From Leifsonia soli (GTDB lineage Bacteria; Actinomycetota; Actinomycetes; Actinomycetales; Microbacteriaceae): DNA of 64,000 nt. The stretch is from the NCBI RefSeq assembly GCF_013408745.1, contig NZ_JACCBJ010000001.1, forward strand, positions 62,001 through 126,000, read 5' to 3'. The notes under the pieces are model-generated. The model did not search any database, was not told the DNA's origin, and saw nothing but the letters and a program-made list of their open reading frames with translations. Each line of letters opens with the position of its first letter. Position 1 is the stretch's first letter. A program made the translations under genes and the position numbers. Positions 10,758-21,522 of this stretch are shown here, piece after piece.

Positions 10758-11519
10758 ATGCAGCTCGACGGATGCTCGGCCATCGTCACCGGCGGAGCCA
10801 GCGGACTCGGCAACGCCACCGCGCACGCGCTCGCCGAGGCGGGCGCCCGCGTCGTGATCGTCGACCTCCCCCGCTCGGAGGGCGAGAAGGCCGCCGTCGC
10901 GCTGGGTCCGCACGCGCGGTTCGTGCCGGCGGACGTGACCAACGAAGCGGAGGTGCAGGCGGCGGTGGACACCGCGTCCGGACTCGCCCCGCTGCGCGTC
11001 GTGGTGAACTGCGCCGGGATCGCCACCGCCGAGAAGGTGCTGGGGCGTGACGGCGTCATCCCGCTCGAGCACTTCGAGCGCGTCATCCGGGTGAACCTGA
11101 TCGGAACCTTCAACGTGGTGCGCCTCGCGGCGGCCGCGATCGCCCAGACCGAGCCGGTCGGCGAGGAGCGCGGCGTGATCGTCAACACTGCATCGGTCGC
11201 GGCGTTCGACGGCCAGATCGGCCAGCCGGCGTATTCGGCGTCGAAGGGCGGGGTGGCCGCCATGACGCTGCCGTTGGCGCGGGAGTTCGCGCGCAGCCTC
11301 ATCCGCGTCATGACGATCGCGCCCGGCATCTTCGAGACGCCGATGATGGCGGGGCTGCCGCAGGCGGCGCAGGACTCACTGGCCGCCCAGGTGCCGCATC
11401 CCTCGCGGCTCGGCCGGCCGGCGGAGTACGCGGCGCTGGTGGGCGCGATCGTCGAGAACCCGATGCTGAACGGCGAGACGATCCGCCTCGACGGCGCGAT
11501 CCGGATGCAGCCCAAGTAG
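10758..11519 (+). CDS. Short-chain dehydrogenase, 3-hydroxyacyl-CoA dehydrogenase type 2 (HSD10-like)
   Basis: NAD-dependent classical SDR of 253 residues. The nucleotide-binding motif is TGGASGLG, followed by NCAGIA, a serine in NTASVAAF and the Y159-S-A-S-K163 catalytic pair. Long stretches recall human HSD17B10 (for example [22 protein letters not shown] and the C-terminus [20 protein letters not shown]), an enzyme that oxidises 2-methyl-3-hydroxybutyryl-CoA in isoleucine breakdown. ATG 10758 has AAGGAG at 10748-10753. The frame continues upstream into the thiolase gene but only as an antisense-like extension. It is the last gene of the catabolic block and is followed by a long hairpin. 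Confidence 0.87.
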
Positions 11520-19875: not shown

Positions 19876-19918
19876 ACGGCGAGAGCCGCCGAGCGGTGAC
19901 TCTGCCACCGGCTGCACC

Positions 19919-20017
19919 GATGGGAATATCACCATCGGCACGGGTGACGGTGATACTACCGTCAGGTAACTTGACGGGGATTTAGCCGTCATCTACGCTG
20001 ATGGGAAAATTACCGTC
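19919..20017. promoter_or_regulatory. hipBA control region: four operators at exact 27-bp spacing over a strong promoter
   Basis: Four 18-bp sites fit GAYGG-N8-CCRTC: O1 19919-19936 GATGGGAATATCACCATC, O2 19946-19963 GACGGTGATACTACCGTC, O3 19973-19990 GACGGGGATTTAGCCGTC, O4 20000-20017 GATGGGAAAATTACCGTC. Starts are 27 bp apart every time. The promoter is TTGACG (19971-19976), 17 bp, TACGCT (19994-19999): O3 covers the -35 and spacer, and O4 covers the start of transcription. This is autorepression geometry for a HipB-like protein; E. coli hipBA also has four operators. Confidence 0.75.
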
Positions 20018-20029
20018 ATGGAGGTCGCG

Positions 20030-20269
20030 ATGTCGCTGGTGGCGCGGATTGACTCCCCCGAATCCCTCGGGCGAGCAATAGAGCAGGCGAGGCTGCTGCG
20101 AGGCCTCTCTCAGCGCGAGCTGGCACGGATGCTCGGCACGGACCAGAAGTATGTGTGGGAGCTCGAGAACGGCAAGTCGACGGTCGCAATTCAGCGCCTG
20201 CTCCGGGCGTCAGACCTTCTCGGCGTCACGCTCCTCGCCGAACTCGACGAGAAGGGCACGGATCAGTGA
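20030..20269 (+). CDS. hipB: HipB-like antitoxin / XRE-family DNA-binding protein
   Basis: A 79-residue helix-turn-helix protein (SLGRAIEQARLLRGLSQRELARMLGTDQKYVWELENGKSTVAIQRL is the HTH, here named by its core QRELARMLGTDQKYVWELEN). It is expected to bind and neutralise the HipA kinase and to repress the operon through the four upstream sites. Starts at ATG 20030 (GGAGG at 20020-20024) or ATG 20018, directly after O4, are both possible; the Shine-Dalgarno favours 20030. The stop overlaps the hipA start (GTGA), the usual arrangement in type II toxin-antitoxin pairs. The gene has more A/T in third positions than its neighbours, in line with horizontal acquisition. Confidence 0.8.
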   Translation: MSLVARIDSPESLGRAIEQARLLRGLSQRELARMLGTDQKYVWELENGKSTVAIQRLLRASDLLGVTLLAELDEKGTDQ

Positions 20270-21522
20270 CCGAGCGTCTGCTGGCCGTCGAGTTGTACGG
20301 GATGAGACTCGGCGTCGTCACCGGAGACGATCGCCGGTTCGATTTCGAGTCCGAGCGCGGTGCGATCGAGTCGTTCGGCCTCGGCTCAACCGTGCTGTCC
20401 GAGTCCGTCCCACTCACTGTGGTGACGCGACCGGCCGGATGGAAGCGACGGCAGAATTACTTCATCGAGCTCCTTCCGGAAGGTGAGCAGCGCGAGTGGC
20501 TTGCCGCCGAGGCCGGGTTGAGGCCGTGGCAGCACCTCTCGCTCCTTGCGGCATTCGGTCGCGACGTCGCTGGCGCGGTGCAGCTCTGGGACCTCCACGA
20601 CCCAGGAGAGCCGCGAACGCCTCGGCTACGGCCGCTTGATGACTCGGGGGTAGCTGAAGTCCTCCGTAATCGGCGGGCCATGCCGCTGGGAAACGTCCCT
20701 GGGGGTGGGAAGTCCAGCCTCGTGGGCGTGCAGCCGAAAGTTGTCCTGGCCCGCGCCAGGGGAACCTGGAACGGCGTGGAAGACGGCTACCCGTCCACCC
20801 ACATTCTGAAGCCCATCCCCGAGGGGCATCCAGCACTGATCTTCAATGAGGAGTACGGGTCACGCCTCGCTCGAGCGCTCGGACTCCTCGACTACGAGGT
20901 CGTCCTCACCGACTTCGCGGGGGAGACCGCGCTCGTCATCGAGCGATACGATCGCGACGCCGCGCTGCCCGACGGGCGGTTGCATCAGGAGGATATGAAT
21001 CAGGCGCTGGGCGCGCAGGGCAATGAGAAGTATCAGCGGCTCGGGGGAAAGGTGACTCTGCGGCGGATCGCCCAGGTCTTCTCGTCCCGCGGGGATGCGG
21101 ACTCGCTGACTCGTCTAGCGCGCCTCGTGGCGCTTTCCGTGGCCACCGGCAACCTCGATGCACACGCCAAGAATGTCAGCATGATCCATCGGCCGGATGG
21201 GCGGGTGACGTTGGCGCCCGCGTATGACATCGTCCCGCAGGCGCATGAGAGCAACGATGGCGAGATGGCGCTCGCCGTCAACGACCGATACCTCCACGCT
21301 GCGATCACCGCGGAGGACCTGATCTCCGAGGTGAAGGGGTGGGGAGTGGTCGACGCGCGCGCGATTGTCTTGGACGCGCTTGACCGGGTGGCGCGCGCTG
21401 TCGAGACGCTGGAGCCCGACCCGCGGGCCCATCCGGGGGTCGCCGAGGACGTGGCGGAATTCACCCGCAACCTCCTTCGCGGCGATCCCGCCGGACGGGC
21501 CGCCTCAGCAGCCAGGAGATGA
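20266..21522 (+). CDS. hipA: HipA-like serine/threonine kinase toxin
   Basis: A 418-residue kinase of the HipA family; E. coli HipA phosphorylates glutamyl-tRNA synthetase and causes growth arrest and persistence. Motifs run in order: N-terminal HipA_N domain, glycine-rich loop region GGGKSSLVGVQPKVVL (E. coli has the regulatory Ser150 here), ATP-site lysine in THILKP, catalytic loop GNLDAHAKNVS and metal-binding APAYDIV. All catalytic residues look intact. Start GTG 20266 in a GTGA overlap; longer in-frame extension overlaps hipB and is rejected. The target here is not known. It ends 6 nt before the end of the convergent transporter gene. Confidence 0.85.
   Translation: MTERLLAVELYGMRLGVVTGDDRRFDFESERGAIESFGLGSTVLSESVPLTVVTRPAGWKRRQNYFIELLPEGEQREWLAAEAGLRPWQHLSLLAAFGRDVAGAVQLWDLHDPGEPRTPRLRPLDDSGVAEVLRNRRAMPLGNVPGGGKSSLVGVQPKVVLARARGTWNGVEDGYPSTHILKPIPEGHPALIFNEEYGSRLARALGLLDYEVVLTDFAGETALVIERYDRDAALPDGRLHQEDMNQALGAQGNEKYQRLGGKVTLRRIAQVFSSRGDADSLTRLARLVALSVATGNLDAHAKNVSMIHRPDGRVTLAPAYDIVPQAHESNDGEMALAVNDRYLHAAITAEDLISEVKGWGVVDARAIVLDALDRVARAVETLEPDPRAHPGVAEDVAEFTRNLLRGDPAGRAASAARR

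Follow-up and report, generated by a model that had tools for sequence, protein, structure and literature searches.

Introduction

The hipBA operon of E. coli K-12 is preceded by four operators of the form TATCC-N8-GGATA, with steps of 28, 39 and 28 bp; they form two 28-bp pairs, and the pairs stand 11 bp further apart, about one helical turn. A sequence-only reading of the locus studied here had drawn on these operators for comparison, with their number and sequence correctly given, but the spacing that it called irregular is so only in part. In E. coli, dimerization of HipA within operator complexes has been reported, and its disturbance has been linked to antibiotic persistence; a change of Gly22 in HipA is thought to disturb the dimer. 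The structure of the HipA-HipB-promoter complex of E. coli was reportedly described by Schumacher et al. in 2015. The complex is available as PDB 4yg7, under the title 'FL autorepression promoter complex'.

Operators in series have also been described for other bacteria. The hipBA1 and hipBA2 promoters of Caulobacter contain inverted repeats in series, three operators each, and the authors consider the repeat intervals consistent with the higher-order HipA/HipB/promoter structure of E. coli (excerpts of PMC7029023 and PMC8545095). In the hipBST operon of Legionella, three HipB operators stand at even intervals before hipB, with gaps of 53 bp between them (excerpt of PMC10653801), and the PaaR2/YdaS operators of a cryptic prophage of E. 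coli O157:H7 are likewise evenly spaced palindromes (excerpt of PMC8630535). As far as these excerpts go, the kind of system is already known, with intervals described for Caulobacter (PMC7029023) and even operators for Legionella hipBST (PMC10653801). Here, we analyse a hipBA locus in a window of 64 kb (the whole stretch of DNA under study) and compare its operator array with those of its relatives.

Results

Four evenly spaced dyads overlap a predicted hipBA promoter

Directly 5' of hipB-hipA, four 18-bp dyads (GAYGG-N8-CCRTC) follow one another at a step of exactly 27 bp each, over a sigma-70-like promoter (Table 1). The sequence-only reading had claimed four such sites, and all of them are present without a mismatch to the motif; the promoter that it drew through O3-O4 is also as it had described, and its view of the sites as operators fits their resemblance to those of a hipBA operon. 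The promoter is a consensus match and not a mapped one, with a spacer of 17 bp between the -35 and -10 boxes. The GACG of the -35 box is common to O3 and the end of the -10 box adjoins the start of O4, and, to judge from this promoter position, the transcription start is expected to fall within O4. A step of 27 bp corresponds to about 206 degrees (about 2.57 turns, with 10.5 bp to the turn), which places neighbouring sites on different faces of the DNA, as the earlier reading had stated.

The window contains five exact matches to the motif, four in the array and an isolated fifth, compared to a mean of 1.4 and a largest number of 5 in 200 dinucleotide shuffles of the window; two matches at most 100 bp apart occurred in none of the 200 shuffles. 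Within the locus, O2-O3 is the best-scoring pair (period 27, p 0.01 against shuffles). The lone fifth match (10767-10784) lies far from hipBA, in a window where 1.4 matches are expected by chance. A possible degenerate site at 19892-19909, one 27-bp step 5' of O1, agrees at 7 of 10 arm positions; it may be due to chance and was left out of the operator count.

Table 1. Features of the hipBA locus (positions in the window).
Feature	Position	Strand	Basis
Operator O1 GATGGGAATATCACCATC	19919..19936	+	exact motif match
Operator O2 GACGGTGATACTACCGTC	19946..19963	+	exact motif match, also exact in the same-genus relative
-35 box TTGACG	19971..19976	+	sequence, consensus match
Operator O3 GACGGGGATTTAGCCGTC	19973..19990	+	exact motif match; overlaps the -35 box
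-10 box TACGCT	19994..19999	+	sequence, consensus match; at the end of the O3-O4 linker
Operator O4 GATGGGAAAATTACCGTC	20000..20017	+	exact motif match; begins immediately after the -10 box
Ribosome-binding site GGAGG	20020..20024	+	predicted from sequence; fits the start codon at 20030
hipB, helix-turn-helix antitoxin, presumed repressor	20030..20269	+	HTH_3 5.7e-12
hipA, HipA-family serine/threonine kinase toxin	20266..21522	+	HipA_C 5.1e-41, Couple_hipA 2.6e-13

The operon encodes a HipBA system

The start of hipB is most likely the ATG at 20030, which is preferred over an in-frame ATG at 20018 (giving 83 aa) because the ribosome-binding site fits the former. hipA starts with GTG and overlaps the hipB stop. 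The arrangement is that of HipBA systems, with a small HTH gene directly 5' of hipA in one operon, several palindromic operators (here four dyads) over a consensus promoter, and both HipA domains in one protein (PF13657, 50.7 bits at a cut-off of 22.5; PF07804, 141.1 bits at a cut-off of 30.5). As HipA is a single protein of 418 aa with both domains, the locus is not of the HipBST type, in which HipS and HipT are encoded apart. The structure predicted for HipA, with a mean pLDDT of 87, matches the Shewanella and E. coli HipA structures, with TM values of 0.76-0.82 among the ten best chains. Ser151, Asp298 and Asp321 are invariant in a seven-row alignment that includes E. coli HipA, whose kinase residues we take to be Ser150, Asp309 and Asp332. 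Ser150 is also mentioned in an excerpt of PMC10627512.

HipB of the window, with HipB(Lp) as its best PDB match (E 5.7e-7), is not of the E. coli type: it scores 21.4 bits for the equivalog NF007271 (against 79) and 50 for the subfamily TIGR03070 (against 71.65), and its C-terminus, DEKGTDQ, has no terminal Trp. In E. coli, the C-terminal Trp of HipB enters a pocket of HipA (excerpt of PMC3376134). Concerning a phage link, HipB had no match in 50,697 phage records, and none of the 67 viral_contigs stretches that matched HipA patterns was confirmed as a relative.

The step is conserved among relatives

HipA matches at E 0.001 occur in 6 of the 28 genomes of the genus, and the strong ones are the window's own, one at 91% identity and one at 49%. 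The 91% relative aligns without an indel over the whole array, with three gaps in the stretch 5' of it. One of its four sites is exact to the motif and the other three, including the counterpart of O1, are each off by one arm position.

A wider set of 139 loci (the window locus included) was collected by HipB or HipA similarity, never by operators, and hipB lies directly before hipA in 135 of them. Removal of L104 (no hipB found), L137 (short upstream region) and 11 near-duplicates left 126 loci, of which three (L005, L014, L030) are without a detected hipA. These 126 non-redundant upstream regions were scanned, independently of any motif, for pairs of similar 18-bp dyads at periods of 18 to 80 bp. 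The best period was 27 bp in 86 regions, 26-29 bp in 102 and 50-56 bp in 14, numbers to be read in view of the mostly actinobacterial origin of the loci and of related loci not being independent; in shuffles of the regions, the best period was 26-29 bp in 10.5%. Individually, 102 of the 126 regions were significant at 0.05, 90 of these at 26-29 bp. Steps were counted in the 100 loci that are significant and have hipA beside hipB. Two sites were found in 27 of these loci, three in 66 and four in 7, and 169 of 180 successive steps measure 26-29 bp.

The comparison of homologous loci, which had been proposed as a check, thus shows a step of 26-29 bp kept in homologous promoters. As a property that would set the window locus apart from other hipBA promoters the step does not hold, since 27 bp is the commonest value among the scanned relatives and E. 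coli K-12 too has 28 bp within its pairs.

For the hipB-like genes L014 and L030, possibly orphans or remnants, no hipA was detected in the retrieved sequence; their dyads stand 27 and 26 bp apart.

Site letters and linkers vary at a fixed step

Across the relatives, the step is independent of the operator letters. Several kinds of half-site occur, GACTAC, GACGG, GACGTC, TATC, TATTG and others. On a quick HipA tree that took in 99 of the 100 rows, the minimum number of changes is 49 for the half-site 5-mers (35 states), 23 for the six broad half-site classes and 12 for the step class (4 states); half-site and step counts are not strictly comparable as the numbers of states differ. Within loci, the arms of the 58 three-site arrays agree at 0.84 and the linkers at 0.33, and linker length is nonetheless fixed.

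Residues around the HipB recognition helix correlate with the type of half-site. All 10 cases with an Asp just before QKY have an xxxGG half-site (2 of 90 for other residues there), and a Trp five residues on is accompanied by GA-type half-sites in 52 of 52 (14 of 48 without that Trp). Tree-based paired tests of this correlation gave two to three supported independent pairs, too few to reach significance.

Controls and deeper HipA families

As a control, we scanned the 27 of 40 further HTH homologues that have no hipA, a weak and poorly matched set with no more than 6 small stand-alone proteins. None of the 27 has a significant array in a 160-nt, same-length scan, and the best period is 26-29 bp in one; a longer-window scan gave one significant case, at 21/24 bp, and a best period of 26-29 bp in two.

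In a further set of hipBA loci, 93 were left after four loci with no HTH found and one unpaired locus; 60 of these have significant arrays and the other 33 do not. Without the near-duplicates L145, L202 and L259, 57 loci remain, in which the smallest step is 24-25 bp in 2, 26-30 in 27, 31-36 in 3, 37-42 in 15, 43-51 in none, 52-59 in 2, 60-63 in 5 and 64-80 in 3. Steps in the deeper HipA families are therefore mostly 26-30, 37-42 or 60-63 bp. A 61-bp step, which exceeds 27-29 bp by about three helical turns, is seen before other hipBA genes in L147, L253, L259 and L263.

The longer-window scan included 14 plasmid stretches. Steps are 27-28 bp in those from Sulfitobacter, Leisingera, Citrobacter, Leclercia and Cronobacter, 27 and 54 bp in Pseudosulfitobacter, 26 and 52 in Alteromonas, 39 in Agrobacterium and 75 in Rhizobium. 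No significant array was seen in the stretches from Cupriavidus, Bradyrhizobium and Mitsuaria; the Acetobacter locus is unpaired, and no HTH was found in that of Bifidobacterium.

Four HipBST-like actinobacterial operons (L193, L196, L197, L200) encode the N-terminal domain of HipA in one reading frame and the kinase in another, as judged by Pfam for the two scanned and by the frames alone for the other two. Steps of 41-42 bp occur in all four and a 31-bp step in three. Three of them (L196, L197, L200) follow a long-short-long plan (41-42/31/42), the reverse of the short-long-short plan of E. coli K-12 (L032, 28/39/28), L212 (29/40/29) and L281 (26/32/26).

A single helical phase common to all steps is not supported by the data: the best-fitting period is 12.1 and not 10.5, and the modes are 11-12 bp apart. 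At 10.5 bp the phases differ, with 196 degrees for the 26-30 bp steps and 272 for the longer ones, and as related loci are not independent, helical phasing across the step classes is suggestive only.

Discussion

A near-constant step between sites that differ in their letters suggests a distance dictated by the protein assembly on the DNA. We consider it probable that HipB uses the four dyads as operators and so represses its own hipBA operon, with a step fixed by protein assembly, likely through HipA-HipA contacts. A HipB dimer carrying a HipA kinase would occupy each 18-bp site, and the bound complexes would shut off the promoter spanning O3-O4. The geometry of the assembly from one site to its neighbour, most likely by HipA-HipA contacts, would fix the 27-bp step and so align the complexes in a zigzag row. 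We infer HipB binding and autorepression from family membership and from the match between HipB residues and half-sites, and bridging between HipA molecules from the step itself: that it is kept while site letters and linkers change argues that something physical between one site and the next maintains it, and together with the reports on E. coli this favours HipA-HipA bridging. The HipA-HipB assembly would then set the step, probably by contacts between neighbouring HipA molecules as reported for E. coli.

For bridging, we count the conservation of the step, its persistence through many half-site changes, the correlation of HipB residues with half-sites, the diverged linkers of fixed length, the 28-bp pairs of E. 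coli and the near absence of significant arrays from the poorly matched HTH controls. The HipS/HipT-like split operons, with other steps (41-42 and 31 bp), point the same way, and they differ in HipB too, not only in HipA architecture. Against it, the step is kept at L014 (27 bp) and L030 (26 bp), where no hipA was detected, and Gly22 of E. coli HipA aligns with an Arg in HipA of the window, an assignment that is uncertain at 27% identity. In addition, cooperative binding to the four E. coli operators is ascribed to HipB by itself (excerpt of PMC3376134), and in that case HipA may not be needed for the step.

These last points lead to the alternative in which HipB alone sets the step, with HipA as a passenger: neighbouring dimers, or the distortion of the DNA between them, would cooperate only at that distance. 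Besides the cooperativity on the E. coli operators, repression of the E. coli O127 hipBST promoter by HipB alone (excerpt of PMC10627512), the evenly spaced PaaR2 palindromes without HipA (excerpt of PMC8630535) and the two loci without a detected hipA are consistent with this explanation. Nevertheless, L014 and L030 may have lost hipA recently, the HTH homologues without hipA lack significant arrays (0 of 27, same-length scan, poorly matched controls), and full-length HipA and split HipS/HipT operons differ in step. We regard it as less likely, with a modest chance of being right.

The geometry of the promoter might also dictate the spacing, if the sites that provide the -35 box and adjoin the -10 box have to stand 27 bp apart at a 17-bp spacer. 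Indeed, 42 of 51 GA-type relatives share the register of the window, in which TTGAC is shared with a site through its GAC and the -10 box starts six bases before the next site, where it ends. Such a register accounts for 27 bp in that one step only, whereas of the 80 steps farther from hipB than the nearest one, 72 also measure 26-29 bp. Moreover, none of 20 TAT-type loci has the register and their step is still 27 bp, a count that took in loci only when their last step was 27; the promoters there are weak consensus matches. With the step kept away from the promoter and at TAT-type promoters, we reject this explanation as improbable.

The sequence-only reading had suggested a helical or DNA-wrapping assembly, from the placement of neighbours on different faces (27 bp being about 2.57 turns). 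In a toy chain, a rough model with one bend per site, bends of 70 degrees (presumably the value for E. coli HipB) nearly oppose each other at steps of 26-28 bp, and the path is extended, with an end-to-end/contour ratio of 0.78-0.82. At 27 bp the modelled path would zigzag (0.81, against 0.29 at a 32-bp step), and with bends of 30 degrees the ratio at 26-28 bp is 0.96-0.97. Wrapping is very unlikely on this model. Finally, tandem duplication of a 27-bp unit, from which equal steps would be expected as a leftover, is hardly credible and was rejected, as linkers have diverged (0.33 against 0.84 for the arms of the 58 three-site arrays) while their length stayed fixed and the step persists through many half-site changes.

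The step classes allow a further, more tentative reading, which we hold to be doubtful. Each HipA group would have its own quantised step because neighbouring HipA molecules must meet through an interface that also masks their kinase sites, and evenly spaced arrays like that of the window would keep the kinase in store in a short HipA-HipB row templated by DNA. Behind it are the classes of 26-30, 37-42 and 60-63 bp, roughly whole helical turns apart, and the 41-42 with 31 bp of split HipS/HipT.

In the literature searched, partly as excerpts and with two key structure papers outside it, we found no statement of a family-wide 27-bp step or of separate step classes. Should the spacing be the footprint of a HipA-HipA contact, promoter comparison alone would show the same kind of assembly to be widespread in actinobacterial hipBA operons and present in some proteobacterial ones. 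The HipA groups at 37-42 and 60-63 bp, and the split HipS/HipT at 41-42/31 bp, should then differ in the contact, and promoter-templated masking of HipA would become testable outside E. coli.

Comparison with known systems

Among systems with even operators, PaaR2/YdaS has a lambda-like repressor and no HipA, as described in the excerpt of PMC8630535. Legionella hipBST shares evenly spaced operators with the window but differs in its 53-bp gaps and in a kinase split into HipS and HipT (excerpt of PMC10653801). The Caulobacter hipBA1 and hipBA2 promoters, going by the same excerpts as above, resemble the window in having inverted repeats at intervals and belong to another phylum. The best solved relative of the window HipA by sequence is that of Shewanella oneidensis HipBA (PDB 4pu3, 4pu4, 4pu5; E 1e-23), with structures that, going by the PDB titles, include HipB and operator DNA.

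Compared to E. coli K-12 hipBA, HipA of the window is 27% identical in the alignment, and HipB is without the C-terminal Trp and scores below the HipB equivalog cut-off. The half-site is GAYGG in the window and TATCC in E. coli, and the steps are 27/27/27 and 28/39/28, respectively. The two loci have in common the hipB-hipA order, four 18-bp dyads with N8 before hipB, the fold of HipA, and a step near 27 bp, which in E. coli is the 28 bp within its pairs.
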